This document shows, in pieces, positions 11,741 to 16,484 of a DNA stretch of 58,825 nucleotides. Source of the DNA: Burkholderiales bacterium (GTDB taxonomy: Bacteria > Pseudomonadota > Gammaproteobacteria > Burkholderiales > Burkholderiaceae_E). Under the pieces are notes generated by a model. That model ran no database searches, was not told the origin of the DNA, and saw only the letters and a program-made list of their open reading frames with translations. Made by a program: the position numbers and the translations under genes. Numbering within the stretch: position 1 is the stretch's first letter; each line of letters starts with the position of its first letter. Location of the stretch: positions 1-58,825 of the forward strand of contig JAPLQE010000074.1 in the NCBI GenBank assembly GCA_026399835.1, written 5' to 3'.

Positions 11741-11744
<4 letters not shown>
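11010..11744 (-). CDS. Rhomboid-family intramembrane serine protease
   Basis: A 244-residue polytopic membrane protein. The catalytic Ser lies in [13 protein letters not shown] and the catalytic His in [17 protein letters not shown]. The second-helix motif [19 protein letters not shown] is also present. About six to seven hydrophobic segments are visible. Rhomboids cleave membrane-embedded substrates; the substrate here is unknown. The start overlaps the ruvB stop by four bases, so the two are probably cotranscribed, which says little about a functional link. Confidence 0.92.
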
Positions 11745-12796
<1,052 letters not shown>

Positions 12797-12894: not shown

Positions 12895-13794
12895 TCAGCC
12901 GCGCCCGGGCGAGGACCGCAGCGCGCCGTCGGGCCCGACGGCGAGCCAGGGCAGGCCGGTGCGCTCGAGGTGGGCGGGCGCGTCGGCCTCGAGCAGCATC
13001 GCGATCGTCGTGTAGCCGCCTGCGGCCACCGCGACCGGCGCGACCACCGTGACCGAGCGCCAGTGGCGCACGGACCGGCCGGTGCGCGGATCGAGCAGGT
13101 GGCAGTGGCGCACGCCGTCGCGCTCGAAGAAGCGCTCGTAGTCGCCGCTGGTGCAGACCGCGCCGTCGGCGAGCGCGAAGGCGGCGACCGTGCCGCCCGG
13201 GTCGCGCGGGTCCTGGATCGCGATCGACCAGGGCGCGCCGTCGGGCTGCGGCCCGATCGCGCGGATGTCGCCGCCCAGGTCGACGAAGCCGTGGCGAGCG
13301 CCCGCCGCGCGCATCGCCTCGGCGGCGCGGTCGGCGGCGTACTCCTTGCCGAAGCCGCCGAAGTCGAGCTCCATGCCGGCGCGCGGCAGCCGCACGGTGG
13401 CGCCGTCGCGGACCACGTCCTGCCAGCCGATCAGCGGGCGCAGCGCGTCGAGCGCTGCGTCGTCGGGCACGATGCCCAGGCGGAAGTCCCAGGCCCGGCG
13501 CAGCACCCCGGACGTGGCGTCGAAGCGCCCGCCGCTGTCGCGCCAGAGCGCGTCGGCATAGCCGAGCAGGGCCTGCGTCTCGGCGTCGACCGGTACGGGG
13601 GCGGCGCCGGCGCCCCGGTTGATCGCCGCCACCACGCTGTCGTCGCGGTAGCGCGAGTACTTGACCTCGATGCGGCGGACCTCGTCGATCGCGGCCTGCG
13701 CCCAGGCGCTCGCGCGCACCTCGTCGGGCGCGGCGAGCCGGATCTCGCAGCGGCTCGCCATCGCGTCGAAGGTGATCCCGAAGGGGCGCGGCAT
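12895..13794 (-). CDS. ApbE-family FAD:protein FMN transferase-like, atypical
   Basis: A 299-residue ApbE fold protein. Family landmarks are MASRCEIRL, EVKYSRYRDDSVVAAINRGAG, RFDATSGVLRRAWDF, MELDFGGFGKEYAADR, FVDLGGDIRAIG and HCHLLDPRTGRSV. ApbE enzymes attach FMN from FAD to Ser/Thr in a Dxx(S/T)GA(T/S) motif using Mg. Two oddities stand out. There is no signal peptide or lipobox, so it looks cytosolic. The metal-ligand Asp of the usual D-x-x-x-T motif aligns with Gly259 (AGGYTTIAML, Thr263 kept). It is the last gene of the TlpA-DUF4266-DUF3570-ApbE operon, starting 17 bases after the DUF3570 gene, which is its obvious candidate substrate. Confidence 0.85.
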   Translation of the reverse strand: MPRPFGITFDAMASRCEIRLAAPDEVRASAWAQAAIDEVRRIEVKYSRYRDDSVVAAINRGAGAAPVPVDAETQALLGYADALWRDSGGRFDATSGVLRRAWDFRLGIVPDDAALDALRPLIGWQDVVRDGATVRLPRAGMELDFGGFGKEYAADRAAEAMRAAGARHGFVDLGGDIRAIGPQPDGAPWSIAIQDPRDPGGTVAAFALADGAVCTSGDYERFFERDGVRHCHLLDPRTGRSVRHWRSVTVVAPVAVAAGGYTTIAMLLEADAPAHLERTGLPWLAVGPDGALRSSPGRG

Positions 13795-13811
13795 CGCCGA
13801 TCCTCGCCGGA

Positions 13812-14966
13812 TCAGAACAGGTGCGTCAACCCGACCTGCATGATCGTCGCCCGCAGCGGCGCGAGGCCGCCGGTGCCGAGGCCGCCGAGGCGCCATTCGC
13901 CGCGCTGCTCGTAGTACTCGACCTTGAAGTCGACCAGGTTCGAGCGGTCGATCGCCTTCGCCACGCGCATGCCCACGGTCGCCGCGCCGAAGGCGGAGAG
14001 GCGCGCGTCGGGCGATCGCAGCGCGCCCATGTCGGTCACGTACCCGACCGGGAACGGCTCGCCCAGCGTCGGATCGTAGGTCGGCCCGTAGAAGAAGTTC
14101 GCCGCGCTCTGCGTGTAGTAGCGCAGCGACGGCGTCAGCGTCCAGCCGCCGGCCAGCGGCTGCACCCATTCGCCGGTGAGCGTGTTCGAACGCACGTCCC
14201 AGCTGTCGGCATAGGCGCGCCAGCCGAGGCGCATGGTCGCGCCCGGGCCTTGGAAATGGTGGTTCCAGCGCAGCAGCACCGCGGTCTGCACCCGCTCGCG
14301 GGGCCGCCTGTCGAGCGACTTGTACGGGTCGGAGTAGTAGCCCTCGCCGCGTGCGTGCGTCACGTTCAGCTGCACGATGTCGACCGGCGTCAGCACCTGG
14401 GTGACGCCGAGCAGCAGGTCGGTGGTGCGGCGGCGCTCGTCGATCACGACACGGTTGACCGGATCGATGCGGTCGTCCGCGCGCCCCAGGCCGAAGCTCC
14501 AGGTGCGGTTGTTGTCGGCGCTGGAGACGCTGGCGCGCAGCGACAGCGCACGCGAGACGTAGTCGTGCTCGCTCGAGTAGGCGCCGCCGACCGACAGCGC
14601 GGCCCGGTCCCAGTGGCGCGTGACGCGCACGTCGCCGGCGGTGCGCTCGTCATGCATCCGCGAGGCGCCGGAGATCGACGAATGCCAGCGCGGCGAGGCA
14701 CCCGAGACCGAGTCGTAGCTGGTCACGCCCTCGAAGCTCCAGCGGCCCGCCACCGGCACGCGCAGCCCGATCGACGGGGTATCGACGCGGATGCGCTTCA
14801 AGCCCGGCTGCGAGTCCTGGTAGTGGAGCCAGCGCACGTCGAGCTGGGCGCGTTCGGGCGGCGCCTGGGCCGCCGCCTGCGGGCACACGCCGGGCAGCGC
14901 GAGCGCGGCCGCGAGCAGGGCGGGGGCGATCGGGGCGCGGGTGATCGGGGTGCGGGAGGTGTCCAT
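13812..14966 (-). CDS. DUF3570 family predicted outer-membrane beta-barrel protein
   Basis: A 384-residue exported protein. The signal peptide (about residues 1-34) ends AAAQA. The rest is dominated by alternating polar/aromatic strands and closes with QVGLTHLF, ending in Phe as outer-membrane barrels do. It matches the DUF3570 pattern (DNNRTWSFGLGRADDRI; DIVQLNVTHARGEGYYSDPYK; LLRWNHHF; YYTQSAANFFYGP). Residues 85-91 read DSVSGAS and 99-102 read SGAS; the first fits the Dxx(S/T)GA(T/S) consensus of flavinylated proteins. No function is established as far as I know. It lies between the DUF4266 and ApbE genes. Its start is 12 bases past the DUF4266 stop. Confidence 0.82.
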   Translation of the reverse strand: MDTSRTPITRAPIAPALLAAALALPGVCPQAAAQAPPERAQLDVRWLHYQDSQPGLKRIRVDTPSIGLRVPVAGRWSFEGVTSYDSVSGASPRWHSSISGASRMHDERTAGDVRVTRHWDRAALSVGGAYSSEHDYVSRALSLRASVSSADNNRTWSFGLGRADDRIDPVNRVVIDERRRTTDLLLGVTQVLTPVDIVQLNVTHARGEGYYSDPYKSLDRRPRERVQTAVLLRWNHHFQGPGATMRLGWRAYADSWDVRSNTLTGEWVQPLAGGWTLTPSLRYYTQSAANFFYGPTYDPTLGEPFPVGYVTDMGALRSPDARLSAFGAATVGMRVAKAIDRSNLVDFKVEYYEQRGEWRLGGLGTGGLAPLRATIMQVGLTHLF

Positions 14967-14977
14967 GCAGGCCACGC

Positions 14978-15199
14978 TCAGTTGCAGCCGCAGCCGCCGC
15001 CGCCCACCCCGGTCCCGCCGGAGGAGCCTTCCTTGCTCGGATAGACCTGCTCGCTCATGCGGCTCTCGAGCGAGCCGGCGTCGAAGCGCATCTCGGGACG
15101 GGCGAGCTCGCCCTTCTCCCAGGCCTGGACCGTGACCGGTCCGCTGCAGCCCGCGCCCGCGCAGCCGATCGCCAGCAGCAGAAGCAGGCGAGCCGTCAT
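14978..15199 (-). CDS. DUF4266 small exported Cys-tailed protein (probable lipoprotein)
   Basis: A 73-residue protein typical of DUF4266. A hydrophobic N-terminus contains two possible lipidated cysteines (Cys13 in LAIGC, Cys18 in AGAGC). The family core follows (VQAWEKGELARPEMRF), then SKEGSSGGTGVGGGGCGCN at the C-terminus. The invariant Cys-Gly-Cys tail could bind metal or take part in thiol chemistry with the TlpA-like protein. ATG overlaps the stop of the TlpA-like gene. The role is unknown. Confidence 0.82.
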   Translation of the reverse strand: MTARLLLLLAIGCAGAGCSGPVTVQAWEKGELARPEMRFDAGSLESRMSEQVYPSKEGSSGGTGVGGGGCGCN

Positions 15200-15771
15200 G
15201 CGGCCCTCGCCGAGAGCGCTTCGCGCAGCGCCGCCTCGAGGGGCGCGCGGTCGTCGTCGCGAAAGCCCGCGTGGACCGTTCGGATGCGACCGTCGGCACC
15301 GATCAGCACCGAGGTCGGCATCGCGCGCACCGCGTAGCGCCGGGCGCTGTCGCCGGCCGGGTCGAAGGCGACGGTGAACGAGGCGCGATGCTCGGCGAGG
15401 AAGCGGCGGGCCGCGTCGGGCTTGGCGTCGAGGTTGACGGCGATCACCTGCAGGCCCTGGGCGCCGTGCCGCTGGTGCATGGCCTCCATCCAGGGGAACG
15501 ACTGCCTGCACGGGCCGCACCAGGATGCCCAGAAGTCGAGCCACACCACCCGGCCACGCAGCCCGGCCAGCGACACCGTTCCGGCGTCCGTGCGCAGCGC
15601 GAGCTCGGGGGCTGCCTCGCCAGCGGGCAGCGCGTCGACCAGCAGCGGGCGCAGCGCGATGCCGGCTGCGGCGAGCGCGCCCAACTGCAGCACCCGGCGA
15701 CGGCCGACCGTGCGGGCATGCGGGGGCAAGGCATGGTCGGGCAGCAGCGGAACGGGCAGTCGGCGGGGCAT
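15196..15771 (-). CDS. TlpA-like periplasmic thioredoxin-fold protein
   Basis: A 191-residue exported thioredoxin-fold protein. Near residue 24 a twin-arginine-like signal (GRRRVLQLGALAAAGIAL) suggests Tat export. The TlpA/ResA-type domain follows, with LRGRVVWLDFWASWCGPCRQ carrying the CGPC active site and the cis-Pro loop VRAMPTSVLIG. It is the first gene of a four-gene operon. Start 15771 gives the most ordinary signal peptide; ATG 15801 is in frame and would add ten residues. A 13-bp inverted repeat lies just upstream. It probably reduces or oxidises cysteines in a partner such as the DUF4266 tail (inference). Confidence 0.87.
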   Translation of the reverse strand: MPRRLPVPLLPDHALPPHARTVGRRRVLQLGALAAAGIALRPLLVDALPAGEAAPELALRTDAGTVSLAGLRGRVVWLDFWASWCGPCRQSFPWMEAMHQRHGAQGLQVIAVNLDAKPDAARRFLAEHRASFTVAFDPAGDSARRYAVRAMPTSVLIGADGRIRTVHAGFRDDDRAPLEAALREALSARAA

Positions 15772-15778
15772 GGCGGGA

Positions 15779-15840
15779 CCGTCGGTGGATCCGCCGATCA
15801 TCAGCCGCGGCCCCGTCGGAGGCGCCCGATCCACCGACGG
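15779..15840 (-). promoter_or_regulatory. 13-bp perfect inverted repeat before the TlpA-DUF4266-DUF3570-ApbE operon
   Basis: CCGTCGGTGGATC (15779-15791) and its exact complement GATCCACCGACGG (15828-15840) flank a 36-base loop, immediately upstream of the preferred TlpA-like start at 15771. In RNA this could form a long hairpin against the ribosome binding region; in DNA it could be a two-site operator. If translation began at 15801 the right half would lie in coding sequence. Confidence 0.55.
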
Positions 15841-15902: not shown

Positions 15903-16484
15903 TCAGCTGCGCGCGAGCAGCTTCAGCGCGTGGCGGATGCCGTCGGACACGCCGGTGTCGGGCGGCACCTGCTTGGCGGCGACGCTCGCCTCGCGTTCGG
16001 AATAGCCGAGCGAGAGCAGCGCGCGCAGGATGTCGGCAGCATGGTCCGGCATCGCCGGCTGCCCGGCGACCGCGGGGAGCTCGGGGGCGAGCTTGCCCTT
16101 GAGCTCGAGCAGCAGGCGCTCGGCGGTCTTCTTGCCGATGCCGGGCACCTTCACCAGCCGGCCGGCCTCCTGCAGCGTCACCGCCTGCGCGAGGTCGGCC
16201 ACCGACATGCCCGACAGCACCGACAGCGCGGTCCGCGGCCCGACGCTGGAGATCTTGATCAGCGCGCGAAAGGCGGTGCGCTCGCCCTCGGTCAGGAAGC
16301 CGTAGAGGAGCTGCGCGTCCTCGCGGACGACGAAGTGGGTCAGTAGCACCACGCGCTCGCCGGCCGGCGGCAGGTCGTAGAGCGTGCTCATCGGCACGTC
16401 GACCTCGTAGCCCGTGCCCTGCACGTCGATCAGCACCTGGGGCGGCGTCTTCGAGAGCAGCACCCCGGACAGGCGCCCGATCAC
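15903..16484 (-). CDS. ruvA: Holliday junction branch-migration protein RuvA
   Basis: A 193-residue DNA-binding subunit of RuvAB. Domain I ([20 protein letters not shown]), helix-hairpin-helix motifs ([35 protein letters not shown]) and the C-terminal RuvB-contacting domain ([15 protein letters not shown]) are all visible. The GTG start overlaps the ruvC stop (GTGA). Confidence 0.97.

Follow-up and report, generated by a model that had tools for sequence, protein, structure and literature searches.

Published work on covalent flavinylation describes close relatives of the locus considered here. Meheust et al. (2021; PMC8238504, cited, like the other papers below, from its accessible sections) found that the DUF3570 protein of Chlorobium luteolum receives flavin mononucleotide (FMN) at both of its [ST]GA[ST] sites when co-expressed with its own ApbE in E. 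coli. Most of that protein was in the insoluble pellet, and because FMN was attached all the same, membrane folding would seem not to be needed for flavinylation. The same paper describes gene clusters in which DsbD accompanies DUF3570, thioredoxin-like and DUF4266 genes, together with 316 such clusters without DsbD. According to the review PMC12052999, most bacterial ApbEs seem to be secreted, and the typical enzyme is a secreted lipoprotein that installs FMN from the periplasmic side; in Klebsiella, a soluble fumarate reductase receives its flavin from an ApbE of the cytosol. PMC11980579 describes MrtJ and one JDVT-CTERM protein as a two-gene neighbourhood and does not name DUF3570. Within the literature searched, only PMC8238504 names DUF3570, DUF3570 with DUF4266, or PF14086, so that the later paper PMC11334425 and PMC12052999 do not name DUF3570. 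Here we analysed a stretch of 58,825 nucleotides (the window) from Burkholderiales bacterium (GCA_026399835.1, contig JAPLQE010000074.1, forward strand), in which genes for a TlpA/ResA-like thioredoxin, a DUF4266 protein, a DUF3570 protein and an ApbE flavin transferase form an operon between ruvA and ruvB. A preliminary description had presented the operon as uncharacterised; since both the gene set and FMN on a DUF3570 protein are reported in PMC8238504, the label has to be withdrawn and the flavin/thiol redox reading is mostly not new. What we did not find in print is a leaderless ApbE beside an exported DUF3570 client, nor the neighbourhood of Ig-repeat, JDVT-CTERM and MrtJ genes. The compartment of ApbE is thus the interesting part of an otherwise known kind of system. 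We moderately favour a Pseudomonadota-type DUF3570 flavinylation operon in which FMN would be loaded in the cytosol, before export and a thiol-flavin relay.

The four genes are all on the minus strand, in the order thioredoxin, DUF4266, DUF3570, ApbE, with an overlap of 4 bases and then gaps of 11 and 17. Each product matches its Pfam family above the curated cut-off (Redoxin 84.6 bits, DUF4266 71.5, DUF3570 217.5, ApbE 247.8), and these matches and the open reading frames (ORFs) confirm the genes, coordinates and spacing of the preliminary description. Scanning genome contigs with a DUF3570 alignment yielded at least 555 confirmed relatives, and the best 80 of these, by their titles nearly all from Burkholderiales or other Betaproteobacteria, make up our main set of loci. 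All four genes occur together in 69 of the 80. ApbE is missing from eight, and TlpA from three (L066, L135 and L134, of which L134 also has no DUF4266; L134 and L135 start at a contig edge). With the window genome included, DUF3570 is present in 18 of 150 relatives and in 29 of 398 genomes drawn from the phylum. The four-gene set recurs across Pseudomonadota: the 30 stretches around the phylum matches all contain DUF4266, 28 contain TlpA and 20 have ApbE close by, beyond which L216 and L218 have an ApbE 5–6 kilobases (kb) away at the edge of the stretch. Given the 69 loci and this recurrence, the arrangement is not a matter of chance. Families lying mostly apart in other genomes had been named beforehand as the result that would speak against a common system. 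Instead, they travel together; all loci were found via DUF3570, so the co-occurrence speaks for DUF3570 loci and not for DUF4266 without DUF3570.

The window ApbE has no signal peptide or lipobox, by which extracytosolic ApbEs are recognised, and it conserves the H-x-x-D-P-x-T-G stretch. Leaders were measured in 103 loci with ApbE near DUF3570, one enzyme each, leaving out nine duplicates and the distant ApbEs of L216 and L218. The measure was the mean hydrophobicity over 13 residues from any ATG, GTG or TTG within 60 codons of the FxAM motif of the domain. A leader-like stretch was found in none of the 102 Pseudomonadota enzymes beside DUF3570. Some start leaves at least 13 residues before FxAM in 74 of the 103, and the largest mean in Pseudomonadota is 1.40; the single Bacteroidota enzyme, that of L193, reaches 2.30. 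The distance from the DUF3570 stop to FxAM has a median of 44 bases, being at most 60 in 61 of 101 loci and at most 90 in 86 of 101 (in L205, ApbE is on the other strand from DUF3570). With a cruder, near-identical measure, values of 1.6 or more are reached by 111 of 120 DUF3570, 115 of 120 DUF4266 and 108 of 111 TlpA sequences.

A tree of 69 ApbEs comprised 48 DUF3570-linked enzymes from Pseudomonadota, 20 that are all those from relatives without DUF3570 among 29 loci examined, and one from Hymenobacter. A branch with support 99/92 separates all 48 from the other 20 and Hymenobacter, the Hymenobacter row being long and its placement unsure. Six of the eight loci without an adjacent ApbE were followed up, and a leaderless ApbE of the same type is encoded elsewhere in five of these six Burkholderiales genomes. 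The one belonging to L119 has the same N-terminus as that of L128, a DUF3570 locus of the same assembly; the sixth genome is that of L097. The other two of the eight loci, L132 and L136, are second clusters of G011 and G008, whose ApbE sits beside ruvB. The window genome is 97.95% complete and contains, at E ≤ 0.001, one ApbE, two DUF3570s and one DsbD_TM match on another contig. At the same threshold it has no FMN_bind and no DUF2271 match, clients of the NqrB/RnfD type not having been searched for. Because the ApbE is leaderless and is the sole one in a genome with two DUF3570s and neither FMN_bind nor DUF2271 among its matches, attachment of FMN probably takes place in the cytosol and precedes export.

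The client itself is conserved where flavinylation would require it. Site 1 of DUF3570 reads SGAS or SGAT followed by P in 79 of 80 loci (SGAS 59, SGAT 20), the 80th having SGAS without P, and site 2 fits [ST][GS]A[ST] in 79 of 79 (SGAS 60, SGAT 9, SSAS 8, TSAS 1, TGAS 1). The signal peptide has a near-invariant core with the consensus LGGAILAAALALPGV. An anchor pattern that allowed five letters after P and four before found G (98%) and L (96%), and 57 of 60 non-redundant sequences fit it; the unusually conserved AA..LPG core is seen in these 57 homologues and in the window at 14860–14966. Much less conservation is found in the leaders of DUF4266 and TlpA when these are aligned at their cleavage sites. 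The last residue of DUF3570 is F or W in 59 of 60 sequences, and 56 of 60 have a G-x4-[FYW] end. Since these ends and the signal peptide fit an outer-membrane barrel, DUF3570 is a probable protein of this kind.

The remaining two proteins would supply thiols. The thioredoxin has a CGPC motif and matches Redoxin, AhpC-TSA, Thioredoxin_8, Thioredoxin and Thioredoxin_2 at E ≤ 0.001, with no PF13899 match at that threshold. It had been described as a Tat-like exported protein; a twin-arginine-like N-terminus is indeed seen in the window's genus, but only there, most homologues having by eye an ordinary Sec-type leader. DUF4266 has a lipobox-like cysteine and the tail GGGGCGCN, in agreement with the earlier view of it as a small Cys-tailed lipoprotein. 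CxC ends the protein in all 121 matches at E ≤ 1e-5, which do not include a broken copy in G005 that ends without CxC. With the families found together, the CxC tail conserved and two FMN sites conserved, the proposal of a flavin/thiol redox module of the envelope holds as the best reading.

Our model builds on the gene order, motifs and missing leader documented here and on the FMN published for a homologue. The leaderless ApbE would be made in the cytosol and would use cytosolic flavin adenine dinucleotide (FAD) to place FMN on the two SGAS serines of still-unfolded DUF3570, a timing that we infer. Sec would then export the FMN-loaded DUF3570, which would be placed in the outer membrane as the predicted barrel. 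The thiol half of the relay would consist of the exported thioredoxin and DUF4266, the lipoprotein with the CxC tail. As for path and direction, DsbD, encoded elsewhere in the genome, may pass electrons to TlpA, which would hand them to the CxC tail and this in turn to the FMNs, for delivery to an acceptor at or outside the outer membrane. A wider claim, that throughout a whole clade of Pseudomonadota a dedicated leaderless ApbE equips an outer-membrane barrel protein with two covalent FMNs while it is still in the cytosol and not yet exported by Sec, seems to us evenly balanced. Here the near-invariant AA..LPG core might aid recognition in the cytosol, and the flavins and the CxC lipoprotein would make a haem-free electron path at the outer membrane.

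Several observations weigh against the model or narrow its reach. No DsbD lies between ruvA and ruvB in the window. Regarding the barrel, the beta-strand periodicity of two is weak, being reached by 45 of 1000 shuffles, and at E ≤ 1 DUF3570 has no sequence match among solved structures. A home-made dynamic-programming topology merged strands across tight turns and left the strand count unsettled, so that it was set aside. Read by eye, the sequence would accommodate some 16 strands, strand 3 being followed by the two SGAS sites on the outer side; the dynamic-programming runs with 8–18 strands place two strands before site 1, against three by eye. Regarding the leader, the cruder measure gives 1.6 or more in six of 96 ApbEs (L071, L076, L082, L091, L134 and the Bacteroidota L193), the first five of which count here; this measure ran five residues into the ApbE domain, that is, into the first strand of the enzyme. 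In L207 a hydrophobic stretch (1.85) is present in the open frame, mostly before the first start codon. Only 12 of 102 loci have a strict ribosome site ahead of the inferred start of ApbE, which is barely informative and could be explained by translational coupling. The ApbEs of relatives without DUF3570 are mixed, some with lipoprotein leaders and some leaderless; leaderless ApbEs as such are therefore not rare, and the notable point is the exported client.

Other points come from outside the compact operon. Two plasmid clusters of Hymenobacter (Bacteroidota) have a DUF3570-linked ApbE with a leader. In a second cluster type (L211, L212, L216, L218–L223), TlpA, DUF4266 and DUF3570 have HZS_alpha-like (PF18582), SH3 and TPR proteins as neighbours, and no leaderless ApbE is close by. 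The five genomes of this type that were examined (G481, G504, G164, G156, G330) each have, by eye, one ApbE with a Sec-like leader, in addition to a lipoprotein-like ApbE; in G156 and G164 the former lies at a distance of 11–12 kb from DUF3570, and in G481, G504 and G330 it is elsewhere. In G150, DUF3570, DUF4266 and TlpA are near a contig end and the single ApbE, elsewhere, has a lipoprotein-like leader. Because these enzymes carry leaders, DUF3570 can probably be flavinylated outside the cytosol too. Leaderlessness is accordingly a trait of the ApbE in the compact Pseudomonadota operon and not of every DUF3570-bearing genome.

The same leaders lend weight to an alternative in which ApbE works in the periplasm, either leaving the cytosol by an unrecognised route or starting further upstream, within the DUF3570 gene. 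The review PMC12052999 regards most bacterial ApbEs as apparently secreted, few ribosome sites precede the inferred starts, and the reading frame of the window ApbE continues upstream without a stop into DUF3570. However, an in-frame stop occurs upstream of FxAM within 25 codons in 28 of 103 loci (within 30 in 41), a leader-like stretch is absent from all 102 Pseudomonadota enzymes, and the median of 44 bases leaves a short space before the motif. We consider a periplasmic ApbE in this operon unlikely. The enzyme might instead stay in the cytosol and serve a cytosolic client, as the Klebsiella enzyme does with its fumarate reductase (PMC12052999), so that DUF3570 here would be unflavinylated or flavinylated only by chance. 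This is very improbable in view of the co-inheritance of ApbE with DUF3570, the conserved FMN sites and a genome with neither an FMN_bind nor a DUF2271 match.

Another alternative concerns the purpose of the electrons and arises from the neighbouring genes. Within the fetched stretches of the 80 loci, DsbD occurs in 49, an Ig-repeat (choice-of-anchor D) protein match in 60, MrtJ in 32 and thioredoxin reductase in 15, these families being named from one representative each. The JDVT-CTERM and choice-of-anchor-D models match in L085, the one representative tested, and some Ig-repeat proteins end in a JDVT-CTERM-like tail. A GGGGCS-DP-helix-RRR tail stands immediately before TlpA in 35 of 116 loci (pattern search; 36 matches, one false). 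DsbD, TlpA and the CxC tail might accordingly do thiol housekeeping for a surface-sorted protein, maintaining a CTERM protein's cysteines in the reduced state while the flavin barrel takes up or supplies electrons, rather than passing electrons to an outside acceptor. The only JDVT-CTERM-like match of the window genome, at 24.2 bits below the cut-off of 27, would also suit this idea, since it precedes the second DUF3570 cluster on contig C19. Against it, the window operon has no CTERM or Ig-repeat gene and no MrtJ, the genome has no MrtJ match at E ≤ 0.001, and just two of the ten relatives with MrtJ over the cut-off have DUF3570. Thiol housekeeping is hence an improbable main function, about as doubtful to us as a periplasmic ApbE.

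MrtJ was also considered as an obligate partner of DUF3570 and rejected: it is over the cut-off in 10 of 150 relatives, against 18 of 150 for DUF3570, and both occur only in G065 and G088. At E ≤ 0.001, MrtJ matches in 42 of 150 relatives, 13 of them with DUF3570, but also in 11 of 14 control genomes, so this threshold was not used. Weaker MrtJ-like genes (61 bits, below the cut-off) are on the contig of the operon in G001 and G004. As in many Burkholderiales, MrtJ and an Ig-repeat JDVT-CTERM protein are in the stretches of L085 (6991–9693) and L080 (6692–7096); in L085 the Ig-repeat protein is in one open frame with the thioredoxin, and by eye about a dozen loci are alike. The second TlpA-DUF4266-DUF3570 set of the window genome (L033 7333–9229; G000:C19, about 59332–61228) has no ApbE, keeps an SGAS site and has the weak JDVT-CTERM-like match just before its TlpA. 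In L134 (2242–5243), DUF1800 and DUF1501 genes follow ApbE, and the same two gene clusters are found in eight loci.

The preliminary description held that the operon interrupts ruvA-ruvB and was inserted as a unit, and comparison within the genus bears this out. In the window, both flanking genes were named by recognising their sequences, without a family search on either, and we take them to be ruvA and ruvB. RuvB is found in all 12 genomes of the genus. The operon adjoins ruvB in five of them: in G000, G005, G010 and G011 it is flanked by ruvA and ruvB on both sides, and in G008, whose contig starts within TlpA, the ruvB side alone is visible. In the other seven, ruvA and ruvB are adjacent, spaced by 44–133 bases in six genomes and by 292 in G006, where the RuvA match is cut short; of these seven, two (G001 and G004) have the operon at another place and the remaining five lack a DUF3570 match. 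The GC content of the operon is 0.745 compared with 0.729 for the window, and its third-position value (GC3) is 0.90–0.98 compared with 0.95–0.97 in four neighbours; recent foreign DNA was therefore rejected as an explanation, composition giving no sign of it. Because of this distribution in the genus and the neighbour-like base composition, the operon looks like a derived insertion between ruvA and ruvB, and by composition not a recent one. The copy of G005 at this site (L052 6969–8190) looks broken, with DUF3570 in two frames and a DUF4266 tail without CxC, while its ApbE and TlpA matches are unbroken.

The features of the locus are listed in Table 1. A pattern search found no promoter or terminator pattern for the operon. 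An imperfect inverted repeat (18-base arms, 89%) is present at 15779–15840, immediately upstream of the thioredoxin gene. It was rejected as an element: the whole intergenic stretch folds like its shuffles (z −0.20), and the frequency of the 13-base arm in the window is not above that in shuffles.

Table 1. Features of the operon and its flanks, in window coordinates.
Feature	Positions	Strand	Basis
TlpA/ResA-like thioredoxin, 191 amino acids (aa), twin-arginine-like N-terminus	15196..15771	-	ORF, Pfam, N-terminus by eye
CxxC motif CGPC, residues 85-88 of thioredoxin	15508..15519	-	translation
DUF4266 small lipoprotein, 73 aa, lipobox-like AGAGC near N-terminus	14978..15199	-	ORF, Pfam
CGCN (CxC) C-terminal tail of DUF4266	14981..14992	-	translation, homologue comparison
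DUF3570 protein, 384 aa, signal peptide with AALALPG core, probable outer-membrane barrel	13812..14966	-	ORF, Pfam, homologues
FMN site 1, SGAS, residues 88-91 of DUF3570	14694..14705	-	site type from PMC8238504
FMN site 2, SGAS, residues 99-102 of DUF3570	14661..14672	-	site type from PMC8238504
ApbE flavin transferase, 299 aa, leaderless; GAGGA six bases before ATG	12895..13794	-	ORF, Pfam
ruvB, downstream flank	11741..12796	-	
ruvA, upstream flank	15903..16484	-	

If the model is right, both the translocon and the barrel-assembly machinery have to handle a membrane protein, exported by Sec, that already bears bulky covalent cofactors. The pairing of a cytosolic enzyme with an exported client would contrast with the installation of FMN from the periplasmic side described in PMC12052999. 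The window genome makes a direct test possible, since its one ApbE is leaderless and our searches recognised no client other than DUF3570. The operon is also a candidate route by which electrons could cross, or be passed on at, the outer membrane without haem; in many Burkholderiales its neighbour is a surface-sorting system yet to be characterised.

Among known systems, the DUF3570 clusters of the "DsbD system" (PMC8238504) are like the window operon in their families, the two [ST]GA[ST] sites, the CxC tail of DUF4266 and an ApbE in the cluster. They differ in that the window operon has no DsbD and is located between ruvA and ruvB. In addition, the thioredoxin family of PMC8238504 is PF13899, whereas that of the window is Redoxin/ResA-like, and the accessible sections of that paper do not discuss a leaderless ApbE such as that of the window. 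The JDVT-CTERM/MrtJ sorting system (PMC11980579) neighbours the operon in many Burkholderiales and its GGGG-C motif resembles the DUF4266 tail, but it is not in the window operon, and in the accessible sections sorting by MrtJ itself is not shown. ApbEs of known structure (PDB 1vrm, 4xdt and 4ifu, by sequence match) have the same domain as the window enzyme and share its H-x-x-D-P-x-T-G stretch. Unlike the typical ApbE, a secreted lipoprotein (PMC12052999), the window enzyme has neither signal peptide nor lipobox and belongs to a separate tree group. It is leaderless like the cytosolic ApbE of Klebsiella (PMC12052999), whose client is soluble, whereas the only recognised client of the window enzyme is exported.

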